From the NCBI GenBank assembly GCA_019347585.1, contig JAHWLC010000085.1, positions 1 to 5,643 on the forward strand: a stretch of 5,643 nucleotides of DNA, written 5' to 3'. The translations under genes and the position numbers were made by a program. Under the pieces are notes generated by a model that was not told the DNA's origin, made no database searches, and saw only the letters and a program-made list of their open reading frames with translations. This stretch comes from Actinomycetota bacterium. Lineage in GTDB: Bacteria; Actinomycetota; Acidimicrobiia; Spongiisociales; ZC4RG35. Below are positions 1 to 5,643 of the stretch, piece after piece (position 1 is the stretch's first letter; each line of letters begins with the position of its first letter).

Positions 1-919
1 AGTAGAGCAGGATGGCGAACTTGCGATCGCTGGGCCGGGTCGAAGGGTTGCGGTCCAGGTAGGGGATCATCATGAAACCGATCATCCCGGTGAAGGTGGG
101 GACCATCACCCCGGCGATCTGGGGGTCGAAGTAGCTGAGCAGCTCCTGGAGGCCCAGGAAGTACCAGGGAGCCTTGGACGGGTTGGGAGTGGCGTTGAAG
201 TTGGCCGGGTCGAGCAGGGGCGAGTGGATGATCACCGCCATGATCACCAACAGACCGGTGATGGCGAGCAGCGCCCCGAACTCCATGAGCATCAGGTGGG
301 GCCAGGTGTTGACCTTGTCGGTGGGCTCCGGCTTGACCTTCTGGATCGCTCCCGCCTTGACCACTGTGAGAAGACGCTGGGTGCGCACCCCCTCGGGCAG
401 CCCTGCGGGCGGCACCACAGGCCGGGGGCTGACCACCCCGGCCACCTTGCCATTCCCGGCGCCGTCACCGCTGGGGTCAGGTGCAGCAGGGCGCTCCTCG
501 ACCGCGGTGGCTACCGCCGGCTCCTCGACGACGGCAGCTGCCGGCTCCTCCACGATCTCGTCACCCTGGGGCGGCGCCTCGGGCTGGGCCTCCTCCTCGG
601 GGCCGGAGTCGTCCTCGGCAGGGGGCTCGGGAGCGTCCTCTGCGGGGGTCGGCTCCTCCCCGGCCGCCAGCTCCTGTTCGCCCGGTGTGGCCGCATCGGC
701 CTCGGCCTCACCCATGGCGGATATCTGTTTCTTCCCCGCCTCGAGCACCATCTCCTTGGGGCTGGGGCGGGGCTCGGCGCCGTCCTCGGCGGAGGGGACC
801 AGCTCCACGGGCGGGCCCTCGCCCTTCATCTCTGCGAGCACCTGCTCGACGGGAACGCCCAACGCCCTGGCCTTCGCCTCGGCCGATCTCCTCAACAAGC
901 TCTCAGGTATGTCGACCAT
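1..919 (-). CDS. Cytochrome b C-terminal half (subunit IV-like) with long acidic N-terminal extension, partial
   Basis: The frame stays open from ATG at 919 to the left edge (306 residues visible, C-terminus missing). From about residue 205 it matches the subunit IV/cytochrome b C-terminal family: a membrane helix (about 209-231), then the Qo-region motif NPSKAPWYFLGLQEL (246-260), then a second helix (about 268-287) ending in PYLDRNP. Such a subunit pairs with the b6-type half encoded just upstream to build the quinol site. Here the usual PEWY/PDWY motif reads APWY, a variant I recall from some other bacterial cytochrome b proteins. Residues 1-34 form a predicted helical domain (IPESLLRRSAEAKARALG) shared with two proteins of the divergent operon. 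Residues about 35-160 are a low-complexity Glu/Pro/Ala linker. Family members normally lack this roughly 200-residue extension, which should be cytoplasmic. A GGAGGG ribosome site lies just before the ATG, 8 bases after the previous stop. The family call is firm; the role of the extension is unknown. Confidence 0.9.
   Translation of the reverse strand, partial: MVDIPESLLRRSAEAKARALGVPVEQVLAEMKGEGPPVELVPSAEDGAEPRPSPKEMVLEAGKKQISAMGEAEADAATPGEQELAAGEEPTPAEDAPEPPAEDDSGPEEEAQPEAPPQGDEIVEEPAAAVVEEPAVATAVEERPAAPDPSGDGAGNGKVAGVVSPRPVVPPAGLPEGVRTQRLLTVVKAGAIQKVKPEPTDKVNTWPHLMLMEFGALLAITGLLVIMAVIIHSPLLDPANFNATPNPSKAPWYFLGLQELLSYFDPQIAGVMVPTFTGMIGFMMIPYLDRNPSTRPSDRKFAILLY
818..919 (-). repeat. Diverged third copy of the shared N-terminal domain, in the opposite operon
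   Basis: Residues 1-34 of the subunit IV-like protein (IPESLLRRSAEAKARALG, then VEQVLAEMKGE) align without gaps with residues 14-45 of the CcoO-like protein. About 16 of 32 positions are identical, including RRSAEA and the VE..LA core. This is a protein-level repeat; the DNA is too diverged to look like a recent copy. Confidence 0.75.
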
Positions 920-927
920 GACCCTCC

Positions 928-1713
928 CTACAGCGGTCCGGAGATGCCGCCGTCCTTGCGGACACGCCAGAAATGGACAGCCATGAAGATGACGATGATG
1001 AACGGGAAGGCGAGAACGTGGAGGACGTAGAAGCGGAGCAACGTGGCCGCGCTCACCTCCACCCCGGCGAGCAGGGCGAACTTGACCTGGCTTCCCATCA
1101 CCGGCACGAAGCCCGCCATGTTGGTGCCCACGGTGACCGCCCACAGCGCAAGCTGGTCCCAGGGGAGCAGATAACCGGAGAAGGAGAGGAGCAGCGTCAA
1201 CAGGAGCAGGACCACTCCGACCACCCAGTTGAACTCGCGGGGCGGCTTGTAGGCGCCGTGATAGAAGACCCGGCTCATGTGGAGGAACACCGAGAGAACC
1301 ATGAGGTGGGCCCCCCAACGGTGGATGTTGCGCACCAGGGATCCGAAGGCGACGTCGGTGGAGAGACGCTCGATGTCGGCGTAGGCCAACTCCGCGGTCG
1401 GCGTGTAATAGAACATGAGGAAGATGCCGGTGATGGTCAACAGGATGAAGAGGAAGAAGCTGAGCCCTCCGAGGCAGAGGGTGTAGGAAAGGCGGACCCC
1501 GTGCCGCTTCACCTTCACCGGGTGGAGGTGATAGAGCACGTTGTTCATCACCACGTAGGAGCGGTTCCTCGGGCTGTCCGAGTAGCCCGCCTTGAACGGA
1601 GAGCCGGGACGGAGGACCGACTCGGCGACCTGGGAGTTCCACAGCCTCTGGGTGGCGTCCCTCACCCGGTCCCGAATCGGTACCCGCCCGTTGCCGTTGG
1701 CCACCCCTACCAC
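928..1713 (-). CDS. qcrB: Cytochrome b6-type subunit (N-terminal cytochrome b half) of a menaquinol oxidoreductase
   Basis: This 261-residue integral membrane subunit carries two b hemes and oxidises/reduces quinol across the membrane. Four helices are visible (about 76-101, 130-150, 163-188, 226-250). The heme ligands are H131 and H145 in helix B, 14 apart, and H232 and H247 in helix D, 15 apart; the 15 spacing is the b6f/Firmicute pattern rather than the mitochondrial one. C80 in TLCLGG aligns with the cysteine that covalently holds heme c_n in b6 (FYCLGG). PWDQ (184-187) and the C-terminal GGISGPL are also b6 hallmarks. The length suits a split b6 subunit. The GTG at 1713 overlaps the ferredoxin gene by 7 bases. 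A GTG at 1704, three codons in and 5 bases after AGGTGG, is an equally good or better start. The subunit IV half follows after 8 bases. qcrB is the Bacillus-style name; petB would fit equally well. Confidence 0.95.
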
Positions 1714-2156
1714 CTCATCCCGTAGGAGTAGCCGTTCTTGAAGTCACGCTGGCCGGTATCGAAGTCCCAGGGTCTGCGGTCGAGGCCGAGCTCGGCGGCC
1801 TGATGGGCCAGTGATCCCTCGAACTTGCCCAGGGTGATGACATTGGTGGGGCAGCGGTCGATGCACAACGCGCAACGGGTGCATTCGTCCTCGTCGACCA
1901 CGAAGAAGCCGTAGTTCTGGGGATCCTCCCCTGGATGGTCGACGTTGACCGCCTCGGAGATGGCGTCGAAGGACAGATAGAAGATGCACTTCCACGGGCA
2001 GATGTCGACACAGCCCTCGCAGAGGATGCACTCCGACTGGTCGATGTGAAGGAACTGCTTGGGGCGGAGCTTGTCCTTGAAGTAGTCCCCCTCGACCTGG
2101 GCGAGCTGATAGTCGTCCCGGAACGGAGGGGTCTCGTCGACAACACCTTTTGGCAT
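1707..2156 (-). CDS. 2[4Fe-4S] ferredoxin-type protein in the cytochrome b operon
   Basis: This 149-residue soluble protein has two complete [4Fe-4S] motifs: [12 protein letters not shown] (C43, C46, C49, C53) and [12 protein letters not shown] (C92, C95, C98, C102). An extra cysteine, C57, follows the first. The 38-residue spacer between the motifs resembles the NuoI-like dicluster layout more than small clostridial ferredoxins. There is no signal peptide or membrane helix, so it should lie on the cytoplasmic face. The start chosen is the ATG at 2156, which shares a base with the upstream stop (TGATG) and has GAGGG 8 bases upstream. The frame is open much further upstream, but that stretch is the antisense-like shadow of the four-helix gene. 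The position directly before cytochrome b6 suggests it passes electrons to or from the cytochrome b complex. A conventional Rieske (CxH...CxxH) is not seen here. Its partner and direction of electron flow are unknown. Confidence 0.92.
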
Positions 2157-2785
2157 CAGCTTCGCCCTCTTATCAGGGGCCGCCCGTAGGGGGAGACCTT
2201 CTCGGGCTTGGCTTCGGCGGGCCGGCCCTCTCTCATCTTCTGGATCTGGATGGCGAGGACCGCGGCCACGCCGAGCATCACCACGTGATAGTTGGCCGAG
2301 ATGAGGTCCTTGACCACGGCCCAGCTGATGTCGACCTCGTTGCCCAGCATGAGGAACGGCGGGATGCTGAGTGCGACCCGCTGGGACGACCAGTCCAGGT
2401 CGGTCTGTGCGTAGTTGAGCCACTCCGACGGCACGATCCCGAAGTAGAAGACCAGCGCGATCCAGGTGATGAAGGCGGCCACGGTGGCCCGGGCCCAAGT
2501 CAGCGGCCGATTGAGCACCCAGAGGAACAACGACCCGACCAGTGCCAGGGTCGTCGCGCCGAGCACGATGAGATATCCGATCCCCTTCCAGATGACGCCG
2601 CGGGGGAACCAGTTGAGATAGTCGACGGTCACCGGGGTCTGCACGCCGCCGACTATCTCGGTCCGCGGGATCGATGACCAGTGGATCCAGATCACCCCGA
2701 GGACCAGGCCGAGGAGACCGGCCACCAGCAGAGCTGCGCCGATAGCCTTGCGGCGGCTCTCACTCAGTTCTGCGAGGCGATACAT
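2156..2785 (-). CDS. Unrecognised membrane protein, four predicted helices, first gene of the cytochrome b operon
   Basis: I do not recognise this 209-residue protein. Predicted membrane segments lie at about residues 14-36, 68-91, 98-118 and 165-183, with a polar loop (about 119-164) rich in Trp/Asp/Ser between helices 3 and 4. The C-terminal tail is basic and probably cytoplasmic. Only two histidines occur, H35 at the end of helix 1 and H167 at the start of helix 4. They could in principle bind a heme but match no known spacing. There is no Cys motif. The ATG at 2785 is preceded by a weak GGGGGA about 10 bases upstream. The stop overlaps the ferredoxin start (TGATG), so translation is probably coupled. 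By position it is likely the membrane anchor or quinone-side partner of the ferredoxin/cytochrome b complex; this is inference from context alone. Confidence 0.85.
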   Translation of the reverse strand: MYRLAELSESRRKAIGAALLVAGLLGLVLGVIWIHWSSIPRTEIVGGVQTPVTVDYLNWFPRGVIWKGIGYLIVLGATTLALVGSLFLWVLNRPLTWARATVAAFITWIALVFYFGIVPSEWLNYAQTDLDWSSQRVALSIPPFLMLGNEVDISWAVVKDLISANYHVVMLGVAAVLAIQIQKMREGRPAEAKPEKVSPYGRPLIRGRS

Positions 2786-2947
2786 CTATTCAGCGTCCCC
2801 CAGCCGGTCGGCGGGCTGTCGGTCGGTTTCTAGCACAGGAAGGCCCTGGTCCGGGAACCCACCAGCCCTCCCGCCAGGCCAATTTAGCTGGGGGGCAGGC
2901 TTGCGAAGTCGTTATGCTCCCGCCGTCTCGCTCCATGAGGGATTCGG
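2786..2947. promoter_or_regulatory. Divergent intergenic region between the two respiratory operons
   Basis: These 162 bases are the only non-coding stretch and must hold the promoters of both operons. Toward the plus-strand genes, TATGCT at 2913-2918 fits an actinobacterial -10 hexamer and would give a leader of roughly 20 bases. No good -35 sits upstream of it; the region there is a run of G. Toward the minus-strand genes, TAAATT (2886 down to 2881) could be a -10, with TTCGCA (2907 down to 2902) as a weak -35 at 15 bases. I see no convincing operator palindrome or riboswitch. That this is the shared promoter region is secure; the individual hexamers are guesses. Confidence 0.5.
2937..2941 (+). 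promoter_or_regulatory. Ribosome binding site GAGGG that decides a TTG start
   Basis: GAGGG lies 6 bases before TTG at 2948. An in-frame TGA at 2936-2938 blocks any earlier start, and the first in-frame ATG lies inside the first membrane helix. TTG is therefore the best start for the CcoN-like gene. Confidence 0.7.
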
Positions 2948-4390
2948 TTGGCTGACGACCAGGACATTCGAGCCGTCCCCGCACGCGGGGGCGACCAGAT
3001 CGCCACCGCTCACTTCGTTGCTGGAGCCGCCTTCCTCGTCGTCGGCGGCGCCCTGGCGACCCTGGCCCTGATGGCGCTTCGCTTCGACGGCATGTTCCTG
3101 TTCACCTATGGCCGCCTCGAGCCCATGGCCAACCTCAGCCTGATGATCGGGTTCGGGGTGATCTCGCTGCTCGGCGGTGTCTACTACACGCTCCCCCGGC
3201 TCACCGGTGCCAGGCTCTGGGCCCCCGAGCTCGCCGGTGTCGGGCTGGTCGCCACCACCATCCTGGTGGTGGCGGGGCTGGCCGCAATCGGCCTCGGGCT
3301 CGGCGACGGCCGCTCCCCCCTGGCCCTTCCCTGGTGGCTCGACCTCCCCATGCTGGGCGCGCTGTCGGTCCCGTTCGCGGTCACCGCCGGGAGCCTCCGG
3401 CGACGCCGGGAGAACCGGAGCTACGTCAGCGTCTGGTACCTGGTGGGCGGGGTGGCCTGGCTCCCCCTCCTCTACCTGGTCTACTTCTTAGGGGACCTTC
3501 CCTTCGTCGCCTCGGTGACCGTGGCTTACGCCAACGTGCTGTTCGGCGCCGGCTTCGTGAACATGTTCCTGGTCACGGTGGGGACCGGGCTCGCCTACTT
3601 CTCGGTGGTGAGGGAGCTCGACGCTCCCCTCGCCAGTCGTCAGCTCGCCCAAGTGGGCTTTTGGTCCCTGGGTATCGCCGCCGGGTGGTGGGGAGCGGCT
3701 CAGCTCATCTTCGGCCCCGGCCCCACCTGGCTGGCCGGGGTGGCCGCCGCCCTGGGCCTGGCCTTCCCGATCGGGGCGCTGGTGAACGCGGCGAACGTCT
3801 CGTTGACTCTGGAGGGCTCCTGGGCCCGGCTGGAGGAAAAGCCCGGGGTCTCCTCGGCGCTCACCGGCCTCTACCTCTGCGTCGGTGCCGCCCTGCTCGC
3901 TGGTCTCGCCGGCTTCAGGTCGGTGACGGCCGTGGTCTCGCTGACCGGGTTCTGGGAGGCCCTCGAATTCGTCTTCCTGGCCGGAGTGGGTCCGCTCCTG
4001 GTGGCGGGCTCGGCGTTCTCGGCAGTGCCCCGCATCAACGGGCGCCGGCTGTACACCCCGGCTCGGGCGCGATCGTTCATCAGGCTCACCCTCGTGGGGT
4101 CGATCGGCGTCCTCGTCACGATGGGCGGTGCGGGCCTGCTCACCGGATATGCCTGGATCGGTGGGTCCAACTCGGCGGGCTTCGTCGACGCCGGCGAGGG
4201 CTGGGCGCAGTCGTCCACCGGTGGCCCCGAGGCCCTGTGGCTGATCGCGATCGGGTTCGCCCTGGTGGCCTTGCTCGGACAGCTCGCCTATGCCTCGGCT
4301 GTGCTGGGGACCATCACCCGTGGCGAGGCGACGACCCAGGAGGTGCTGGTGCCGGTGGGGGCTCCCCTCGATGAGGAGCCCGAGGCGTGA
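2948..4390 (+). CDS. Heme-copper oxidase subunit I (CcoN-like) homologue lacking the heme and CuB histidine ligands
   Basis: This 480-residue protein has about 12 predicted membrane helices, matching heme-copper oxidase subunit I in length and topology. Several stretches align by eye with CcoN (cbb3 oxidase). GRLEPMANLSLMIGFG (55-70) matches GRLRPLHT...FAFG. FGAGFVNMFLVT (199-210) matches YGHN..GFFLT. GFWSLG...WWGAAQL (238-253) matches HFW...GPHHLH. The segment NAANVSLTLEGSWARL (280-295) matches INGLMTLSGAWDKL. Each position where CcoN binds heme b, heme b3 or CuB is replaced: A61, A201, A250-A251, and FVF (341-343) for HVH. The only histidine in the protein is H22. The frame is intact, so this is not a decayed gene, but oxygen reduction by the usual site is not possible. 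It overlaps the CcoO-like gene by 4 bases (GTGA), which supports a CcoN/CcoO-type pair. It could be a structural scaffold or a repurposed quinone-binding subunit. Family assignment is from remembered motifs, not a search. Confidence 0.82.
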   Translation: MADDQDIRAVPARGGDQIATAHFVAGAAFLVVGGALATLALMALRFDGMFLFTYGRLEPMANLSLMIGFGVISLLGGVYYTLPRLTGARLWAPELAGVGLVATTILVVAGLAAIGLGLGDGRSPLALPWWLDLPMLGALSVPFAVTAGSLRRRRENRSYVSVWYLVGGVAWLPLLYLVYFLGDLPFVASVTVAYANVLFGAGFVNMFLVTVGTGLAYFSVVRELDAPLASRQLAQVGFWSLGIAAGWWGAAQLIFGPGPTWLAGVAAALGLAFPIGALVNAANVSLTLEGSWARLEEKPGVSSALTGLYLCVGAALLAGLAGFRSVTAVVSLTGFWEALEFVFLAGVGPLLVAGSAFSAVPRINGRRLYTPARARSFIRLTLVGSIGVLVTMGGAGLLTGYAWIGGSNSAGFVDAGEGWAQSSTGGPEALWLIAIGFALVALLGQLAYASAVLGTITRGEATTQEVLVPVGAPLDEEPEA

Positions 4391-4524
4391 GCGACAACCT
4401 CACCGCCGCGGCCGAGGCGCTCGGGCTCCCCGAGGCGCTGGTGCGGCGGTCGGCGGAGGCCCGCGCCGCCGAGACAGGAGACGATGTCGAGGAGATCCTC
4501 GCCGCCTGGGCCGGTGGGGAGGCG
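4387..4524 (+). repeat. Duplicated N-terminal domain coding segment, copy 1
   Basis: By hand count, 121 of 138 bases match 5244-5381 (about 88%) without gaps, and most changes are silent third positions. It encodes the 46-residue helical domain with core LPEALVRRSAEARAAETG and VEEILAAWAGGE. Similarity fades once the acidic linker begins, so only this module was copied or kept similar. Confidence 0.85.
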
Positions 4525-5247
4525 GCCCCCTCCGAGACGGCTGAAGCCGCCGAGCCCGCCACCGCCGAGCCCGCTCCCGAAGAGGACGAAGCCGAAGAGA
4601 CAGCCGAGGAGGTCGAAGCCGAGCCCGCTCCCGCCCCGGCGCCTGCCGCCCAGCCGGAGGTGGTGATCGAGGTTCCCGAGCGCCGTCCCGCCCCCGTGGG
4701 CGCCCCCGCCGCGGAGACGGCAGCGGCCAAGCCCCCGGTGCTGATCGGGGTCCGGGACAACCCGATGACGCTGCTCAGCGGGGTGCTCGGCCTGTTCATC
4801 GTGGTGGCGCTGGTCGCGGTGCTGGGGCCATCCCTGCCGGTCGACGCGCCCGGTGCCCGCACCAGCGAGATCGAGTATTCCCGCCTCGCCGAGGAGGGGC
4901 GTGAGGTCTACCGGACCCTGGGCTGCCCCTTCTGCCACACCCAGATGGTCCGCCCCGTCGTCGCCGACGTCGGGCTGGGCGCGGTGACCCTCAACGACAC
5001 CAATCAGGTGCTCGGGGTGAGGCGCTTCGGTCCCGATCTCTCCGATGTCGGCACCCGAGTCGGCCCCGCACAGATCGAGGAGATCCTCGCCGGGGTCGGG
5101 GGTCATCCGCCGCATCGTCTCGACAGCGAGGACATGGCCGCTCTCGTCGCCTATCTCTCAGAATCGCAGACCTCGCCCGAGGAGCCTGCACAGCCTGACC
5201 TCGAGGAGGGTGAGGAGCCGGGCGAAGAGGACGAGGGCGGGGCATGA
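4387..5247 (+). CDS. CcoO-like membrane-anchored monoheme cytochrome c with shared N-terminal domain
   Basis: This is a 286-residue protein. Residues 1-46 are the helical domain shared with the next gene and with the subunit IV-like protein. Residues about 47-120 are an acidic Glu/Ala/Pro linker. One membrane helix follows (about 127-148), then a periplasmic cytochrome c domain. The heme site is CPFCH (C180, C183, H184). GREVYRTLGCPFCHTQMVRP resembles CcoO (REVY...GC..CHSQMIRP), as does the later FGPDLSDVGTR. The domain is shorter than in usual CcoO, and the tail (258-286) is strongly acidic. The usual second axial ligand (MP before a final LVAYL) reads GGHPPH (H240, H243), so the heme may be His/His; M250 is the only later methionine. 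In cbb3 oxidases CcoO delivers electrons to CcoN, but the CcoN-like partner here has no hemes. GTG start overlaps the previous stop; the end overlaps the next ATG. Confidence 0.88.
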   Translation: MSDNLTAAAEALGLPEALVRRSAEARAAETGDDVEEILAAWAGGEAAPSETAEAAEPATAEPAPEEDEAEETAEEVEAEPAPAPAPAAQPEVVIEVPERRPAPVGAPAAETAAAKPPVLIGVRDNPMTLLSGVLGLFIVVALVAVLGPSLPVDAPGARTSEIEYSRLAEEGREVYRTLGCPFCHTQMVRPVVADVGLGAVTLNDTNQVLGVRRFGPDLSDVGTRVGPAQIEEILAGVGGHPPHRLDSEDMAALVAYLSESQTSPEEPAQPDLEEGEEPGEEDEGGA

Positions 5248-5381
5248 GCGACAACCTCGCTGCCGCAGCAGAGGCGCTCGGGCTCCCCGAGGCCCTGGTG
5301 CGCCGCTCCGCTGCGGCCCGCGCCGCCGAGACCGGAGCCGACGTCGAGGAGATCCTCGCCGCCTGGGCGGGCGGGGAGGCA
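5244..5381 (+). repeat. Duplicated N-terminal domain coding segment, copy 2
   Basis: This is the second copy of the 138-base module, 857 bases downstream of the first, at the very start of the next gene. 43 of 46 residues are identical to copy 1. Confidence 0.85.
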
Positions 5382-5643
5382 CCCACCCCTTCGCCCGCTC
5401 CCGCCGAAGAGCCCGAGGAGAAAGCAGCGGAGGAGGCCGCCGAGCCCGAAGAGCGCATCGAGGAGCCGGCCGAGGAGAAGCCTGCAGCCGAGGCGCCCCA
5501 GCCACCTCCGGTAGAGAAGCCGGCGCCGGCCGCGGCCGCACCGCCGGCACCGCCCCCTGCCCCGGCGGAGGTGACACCGGAGGAAGCAGCGAGAGTCCCG
5601 GTGGTGGTCACCGTCCCCACCTCACAGATCAAGGAGCGAACCT
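5244..5643 (+). CDS. Protein with the shared N-terminal domain and acidic linker, partial; function not visible
   Basis: The ATG at 5244 overlaps the previous stop (ATGA), and the frame is open to the right edge (133 residues). Residues 1-46 differ from the CcoO-like protein at only three positions (6, 24, 32). Residues about 47-115 are a Pro/Ala/Glu linker that has diverged from its neighbour, turning more proline-rich. Residues about 118-133 (VPVVVTVPTSQIKERT) look like the approach to a following domain, by analogy with its neighbour a membrane helix. The functional part lies beyond the window. A further cytochrome c or oxidase-type subunit (CcoP-like) would fit the operon, but nothing visible proves it. 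Confidence 0.85.
   Translation, partial: MSDNLAAAAEALGLPEALVRRSAAARAAETGADVEEILAAWAGGEAPTPSPAPAEEPEEKAAEEAAEPEERIEEPAEEKPAAEAPQPPPVEKPAPAAAAPPAPPPAPAEVTPEEAARVPVVVTVPTSQIKERT

Follow-up and report, generated by a model that had tools for sequence, protein, structure and literature searches.

A CcoN-like protein of Acidimicrobiia without heme or copper ligands, and its possible reuse as a cytochrome c chassis on complex III

What becomes of the core subunit of a terminal oxidase once the residues that hold its hemes and copper are gone? The question is raised by a 5,643-nucleotide stretch of DNA from an Actinomycetota bacterium of the class Acidimicrobiia (contig JAHWLC010000085.1 of assembly GCA_019347585.1, positions 1 to 5,643 of the forward strand; hereafter the window), which encodes a homologue of CcoN, the core subunit of cbb3-type oxidases:

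2948..4390, plus strand: ligand-free CcoN homologue of 480 amino acids (aa), with A61, A201, A245, A251, Q252, L339 and F341 at the ligand columns

We consider it rather probable that this gene encodes a cofactor-free, CcoN-derived frame in the membrane, whose predicted task is to keep cytochromes c of CcoO-like and CcoP-like type next to a Rieske/cytochrome b complex. An earlier note, made from the letters of the window, had described an oxidase core that was repurposed rather than decayed and had proposed a profile search and a structure prediction. The protein matched COX1 (PF00115) at 74.1 bits, above the curated cut-off of 34.8, and scored 91.5 bits on the NCBIfam ccoN equivalog TIGR00780, below its cut-off of 583. 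Structure prediction, which covered one family, gave the fold of CcoN and not a different one, so the protein is predicted to retain the COX1 helical fold of CcoN type.

We take the six metal histidines of P. stutzeri CcoN to be H60 and H347 (the low-spin heme pair), H345 (proximal to heme b3) and H207, H257 and H258 (CuB), with Y251 as the active-site tyrosine. In that numbering, the window's protein lacks the low-spin pair (H60 to A61, H347 to F341), the b3 ligand (H345 to L339), all three CuB ligands (H207 to A201, H257 to A251, H258 to Q252) and the tyrosine (Y251 to A245). Identical positions were obtained from a 20-sequence profile aligned to 9g6b. The earlier map, drawn by eye, had A61 and A201 right, misplaced the H257/H258 sites by one residue and the HVH pair by two, and correctly gave H22 as the protein's only histidine. 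As profile and pairwise alignments agreed and H22 is the sole histidine, a misalignment hiding nearby ligands was rejected. Histidines within three columns of a ligand site occurred in 15 of 56 Acidimicrobiia sequences and 6 of 120 proteins, at scattered sites in those shown; alternative ligands were rejected, as no ligand-capable column was conserved. Columns conserved at 90% or more in ligand-keeping CcoN mostly fell into two sets, the ligands, Y251 and their neighbours (W203, G324) having been released and the structural landmarks kept, with some columns intermediate. The retained COX1 fold would suit a working oxidase or reductase whose hemes are held by non-histidine ligands, but we regard this as scarcely credible, given that the ligand columns differ from clade to clade, with Ala, Gln, Ile and Tyr/Phe in the window's subfamily, and that the active-site tyrosine and neighbouring columns were released as well. 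Judged by its sequence, the protein descends from CcoN, the core subunit of cbb3 oxidases, and has lost every heme and copper ligand; O2 reduction, bound hemes b and CuB would probably be absent. With the residues that hold heme and copper gone, it is likely an inert membrane frame and not an oxidase.

Ligand loss is a family trait of the Acidimicrobiia CcoN-like proteins and is under purifying selection. The protein search found 421 relatives at E <0.001 among the candidates scored, and in the best 120 of these the ligand-free state held in 119, the sole histidine at a ligand column being that of P0105 at the H347 column. The seven columns in these 120 were A/S/G/T, A/S/G, A/S/G, A/S/V, Q (120/120), I/V/L and Y/F/L, and H22 was present in 117, the remaining three having gaps. 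None of 56 distinct Acidimicrobiia sequences had any of the six histidines (two, L017 and L021, end before the H345 and H347 sites). The gene was present in 36 of 41 near genomes and, class-wide, 123 of 296 genomes matched, 113 of them at E <1e-30 and many of about 1 Mb. The ratio of nonsynonymous to synonymous substitution (dN/dS, Nei-Gojobori) was 0.07-0.21 in 12 Acidimicrobiia pairs. True CcoN was absent from the near genomes at the ccoN cut-off (0/41), which one of 14 genomes in the control rings exceeded. Homologues of the same clade that kept the histidines had been named as the contrary finding; no checked member of the window's clade keeps the six, and ligand-keeping CcoN lies across a supported branch. 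The predictions of a conserved histidine-free state and low dN/dS are thereby borne out, and fold, clade-wide state and selection agree with repurposing. A single degenerate gene was rejected, with many relatives across the class, ligand-free in all 56 distinct sequences read, and dN/dS well below 1. Decay of the whole family, as a pseudogene or degenerating oxidase subunit, would explain why all catalytic residues are gone, as well as partial states (1-3 histidines) seen within Verrucomicrobiota; we give it next to no credence, and for the Acidimicrobiia family the open frame, the dN/dS values and the spread, including genomes of about 1 Mb, refute it. Elsewhere in the phylum, four sequences were also without ligands (L177-L180), and in a wider quick tree a 98% branch sets apart 31 Acidimicrobiia and four other actinobacterial ligand-free proteins. 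All six histidines are present in four further actinobacterial CcoN; the two of these that were looked at (L190, L191) had no ferredoxin or cytochrome b genes within 18 kb and stood instead with a heavy-metal P-type ATPase.

What the frame might do is suggested by its neighbours, which lie in two divergent operons:

4387..5247, plus strand: CcoO-like membrane cytochrome c, 286 aa (PF02433, FixO, 39.1 bits over 29.6; one CxxCH)
4924..4938, plus strand: CPFCH heme c attachment motif of the CcoO-like protein, read from the sequence
5244..5643, plus strand: third gene (open reading frame, ORF), start only, running past the window's end; CytC3 in relatives
2786..2947, no strand: 162-bp intergenic stretch between the divergent operons, from ORF coordinates
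2156..2785, minus strand: membrane protein of about 210 aa that heads the divergent operon and is conserved, from the ORF and relatives
1710..2156, minus strand: two-cluster 4Fe-4S ferredoxin subunit (PF00037 and others)
928..1713, minus strand: cytochrome b6-like (PetB) subunit (PF00033, 167 bits; NF040969, 299 bits; cytochrome b6 model)
2..919, minus strand: PetD-like subunit, cut by the window's end (PF00032, 23.1 bits over 20.7)

The start of the CcoO-like gene overlaps the stop of the CcoN-like gene by 4 bp, in keeping with the translational coupling noted earlier. Its product matched FixO and carries CPFCH, which supports the earlier assignment of a CcoO-like partner, and scored 35.3 bits on the ccoO equivalog model, below the cut-off of 200.65; the conserved unit is larger than that pair, comprising a Rieske/cytochrome b-ferredoxin operon and two cytochromes c. 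CytC3, seen whole in relatives, is a cytochrome c with one transmembrane segment and one CxxCH. The CxxCH motif was kept in 51 of 54 CcoO-like and 59 of 71 CytC3 ORFs, and every miss runs off the end of a stretch. No Pfam or NCBIfam family matched the 210-aa membrane protein. Genes of the Rieske/cytochrome b complex thus adjoin the frame, cytochrome b and PetD-like in the window, Rieske and cytochrome c in relatives: in L003 the divergent operon continues, beyond what corresponds to the window's edge, with Rieske (PF00355), a two-CxxCH cytochrome c and a small membrane protein. Across 20 far loci, the ferredoxin gene was found in 20 and the PetB gene in 19, L101 ending before it. Frame and CcoO were fused as one ORF in 14 of these 20, and also in L055 and L057, and in L103:8093-10219 (minus strand) the ligand-free CcoN ends in a cupredoxin domain.

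These arrangements bear on two further possibilities. The frame may have acquired new chemistry, as a complex III subunit that binds quinol or conducts ions, with a quinone, an ion or an unusual cofactor bound to it, instead of holding its partners passively; polar positions H22, E58, N62 and E340 are conserved at 90% or more in the window's subfamily (A1), but none reaches 85% over the 31 Acidimicrobiia proteins, and fusion with CcoO or with cupredoxin suggests partners that carry electrons, so that we think this unlikely. More doubtful still is an assembly or regulatory decoy that competes with or chaperones CcoO/CcoP-type cytochromes without being a permanent respiratory subunit. Inactive relatives of enzymes often turn into regulators, and partner genes were kept here when catalytic residues were not; the operon place by structural genes, the stop-start overlaps and the one-chain CcoO fusion suit a structural subunit better.

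A parallel was found in Verrucomicrobiota, where an Opitutae locus family directly follows ActA-F of Alternative Complex III (ACIII); in L136, for instance, ActD matched PF11821 at 197.9 bits and ActC NrfD at 61.9 bits. The search matched 60 of 194 genomes at E <0.001. We read all 38 matches of at least 199 bits and that of G342, together 39 ACIII-linked CcoN, as well as seven of 46 lower-scoring matches chosen by hand. Six histidines were present in 16 of the 39 and none to three in 23, which have thus lost three or more; the seven lower-scoring CcoN, with no Act gene within 6-19 kb, all keep six. The same operon slot therefore holds a series of six, three, two, one or no histidines. H257, H345 and Y251 were absent in all 25 lost-state sequences (the 23 and two named Methylacidiphilum proteins), and among the 120 proteins listed as relatives of the Opitutae one, 111 had no ligand histidine and nine had one. 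Four lost-state pairs gave dN/dS of 0.05-0.26. The 39 ACIII-linked sequences grouped together (100/100), as did the 31 Acidimicrobiia (98/97), in a careful tree from which the ligand columns had been left out; on the tree, the Verrucomicrobiota losses are separate from the actinobacterial one. Lost sequences stood in three places, as 14 (100/99), as eight (96/86) and as a single sequence, G472, nested among kept ones (those 17 together 99/98), with finer placements made unsure by the long branches L146, L109, L177 and L175. The last of these (347 aa, six sites E-S-A-R-V-D, no Act gene in its 15 kb) was included in the second tree and stands outside the 39 and the 23. A single loss in Verrucomicrobiota was rejected, since joining the 23 lost sequences cost 50.3 log units (approximately unbiased test, p-AU 0.0118, an optimistic value because the group was named after the first tree was seen). 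If no ligand was regained, ligands would have been lost about three times in Verrucomicrobiota and about four times in all, with one loss in Actinomycetota; unordered parsimony with free regain gave a minimum of three changes in all. The series may be a natural record of an enzyme becoming a structural part, and its supercomplex architecture is testable in cultured strains.

Frame, cytochromes and a quinol-oxidising complex thus co-occur in two phyla whose complexes III are unrelated, and a structural hub is the simplest reading of this. The ligand-free CcoN would keep cytochromes c beside complex III, and CcoN-like protein, CcoO-like protein and CytC3 would form one complex with it, a physical association that for the Rieske/cytochrome b complex is predicted from gene order. 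The frame itself would not have acquired a different type of metal centre. Electrons would travel from menaquinol via complex III and the held cytochromes c, running past the frame to a separate terminal oxidase of aa3/caa3 type. Such an assembly may have begun with a cbb3 oxidase already docked on the quinol-oxidising complex; when a second oxidase came to take the electrons, the catalytic core of the first would no longer have been needed, the cytochrome-holding frame staying useful. In the wider form, that a heme-copper oxidase core emptied of its cofactors was reused about four times as a cytochrome c relay chassis on complex III or ACIII, we hold the proposal to be slightly better than even.

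An oxidase to receive the electrons was often found, as 32 of 36 near relatives with the ligand-free gene also hold a COX1 of at least 300 bits. In Verrucomicrobiota, another COX1 of at least 418 bits was present in 23 of 23 lost-state genomes and 13 of 16 kept-state ones; in G301 and G446 (kept state, small assemblies, completeness not stated) the ACIII-linked CcoN was the only COX1 match. Several points weigh against a structural hub. Complex formation is argued from genes and predictions. In three other actinobacterial ligand-free loci (L186-L188) 5-8 kb separate the gene from those for ferredoxin or cytochrome b, and the 9-kb contig of L189 holds neither. CcoO is not obligatory, since in L018 the CcoN-like gene and that for CytC3 have no CcoO-like ORF between them. 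One lost-state Verrucomicrobiota pair is the one at dN/dS 0.26, and some lost-state proteins there keep up to three histidines (L167). The window's genome, 75.6% complete, showed no other full COX1 and no COX3. Five of the 41 near genomes are without the gene, among them G009, G039 and G040, each with a strong COX1, so that it is not needed by every oxidase-bearing relative; the difference between 23/23 and 13/16 is small. That a short N-terminal domain shared by three of the proteins (described below) ties the parts together is our guess. Separately, two near-complete genomes of the window's order (G027, G034) had neither a COX1 match nor the ligand-free gene, and a 393-aa COX1-like protein at L002:1306-2487 (minus strand; G000:C186), below the Pfam cut-off, keeps an HVHAGTLGW motif.

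The Verrucomicrobiota lost group includes proteins of Methylacidiphilum kamchatkense Kam1 (P0241) and M. infernorum (P0243), both with S-E-S-H-F-V at the six sites, one histidine of six. The gene order at what is probably the locus of P0241 is ActB-F, CcoN-like, CcoO, CcoP and ctaD, and four genomes of this kind had pmo/amo genes and the same S-E-S-H-F-V. Their identity as CcoN is drawn from operon slot, a COX1 match of 51.4 bits and the tree, on which they are long-branched, P0241 scoring only 22.0 bits on ccoN. G342 had six COX1 matches: besides the ACIII-linked one, three were best as CtaD (97, 87 and 547 bits, the last also with 26.4 bits on ccoN), one was without a model and one was the operon's ctaD. 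No ligand-bearing cbb3 core was found among the six, as the other five were CtaD-type or without a model. In the part of PMC6688271 available, an ACIII-linked 'cbb3' was used to explain high oxygen affinity in Methylacidiphilum; as the lost-state gene is the CcoN-like one beside ACIII, the Kam1 'cbb3' of that paper would be this gene. The Methylacidiphilum ACIII-linked CcoN-like subunit should not bind the usual centres, against the published reading. If it serves as a chassis, the ACIII-linked 'cbb3 oxidase' of verrucomicrobial methanotrophs would be no oxidase, and oxygen affinity would come from another enzyme.

Compared with known systems, the window's protein shares with cbb3 CcoN (PDB 3mk7, 9g6b, 8smr) the fold, landmark residues, a following CcoO-like gene and a membrane cytochrome c partner; unlike it, it has no low-spin heme pair, b3 ligand, CuB ligands or active-site tyrosine, and it adjoins Rieske/cytochrome b genes. 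In the actinobacterial bcc-aa3 supercomplex (6adq, 7qho), complex III is permanently coupled to the oxidase through a bound cytochrome c; its COX1 subunit is catalytic, whereas the COX1-like subunit here is ligand-free. In cytochrome bd, CydB is related to a heme-bearing membrane subunit and is retained for a structural role; its fold and superfamily differ from those of the CcoN-like frame. The ACIII-linked 'cbb3' of Opitutaceae and Methylacidiphilum, as far as the parts of PMC8498564 and PMC6688271 at hand describe it, likewise has CcoN-CcoO-CcoP following a quinol:cytochrome c oxidoreductase, and shares ligand loss with the window's family; it differs in having ACIII in place of Rieske/cytochrome b, in its copies that keep six histidines and in its separate losses. 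We found no description of a ligand-free CcoN in the open-access PubMed Central (PMC) literature, most subscription papers lying outside that scope, nor in the available portions of PMC5492636, PMC8407424, PMC6688271, PMC8498564, PMC13274419, PMC4013037 and PMC10205796. An 'unknown group' in a 2015 heme-copper oxidase tree, cited in the portion seen of PMC5492636, may be prior notice, and acidobacterial cbb3 genes were reported, in what was accessible of PMC8407424, to show no detected expression at low O2, their function being called unclear. If the frame is what we propose, it would be a new class of respiratory subunit. COX1-family genes are commonly taken as evidence of oxygen respiration, and whole clades carry automatic 'cbb3-type oxidase' names without catalytic ligands.

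The ferredoxin encoded within the Rieske/cytochrome b operon (window 1710-2156 and 928-1713, both minus strand) has two clusters, and the window's PetB has a Cys before LGG, which resembles the heme ci site of b6; ferredoxin and PetB possibly form a built-in ferredoxin-quinone entry.

A domain of about 39 residues (consensus LAAAAAALG-PE-LV-RSAEARA---G--VDEVLAAWAGG) is repeated at the N-terminus of three kinds of protein (PetD-like, CcoO-like and CytC3), with one to five copies, and in the window is found at:

4387..4518, plus strand: copy 1, on the CcoO-like protein
5244..5375, plus strand: copy 2, on CytC3
821-919, minus strand: copy on the PetD-like subunit

It was present in 38 of 38 PetD-like, 72 of 73 CytC3 and 53 of 57 CcoO-like proteins, from partly redundant loci (two of the four CcoO-like misses are the same Opitutae locus counted twice). 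In the window's proteins it drew no Pfam match, and L182, from the window's order, was the only place where it turned up among the Verrucomicrobiota and other actinobacterial sets. By eye, it presumably resembles a subunit-binding domain of dihydrolipoamide type. The window's genome has one more copy outside the window, on a multi-helix protein (G000:C36:652-780), and in relatives up to five copies occur, as on the PetD-like protein of L100.
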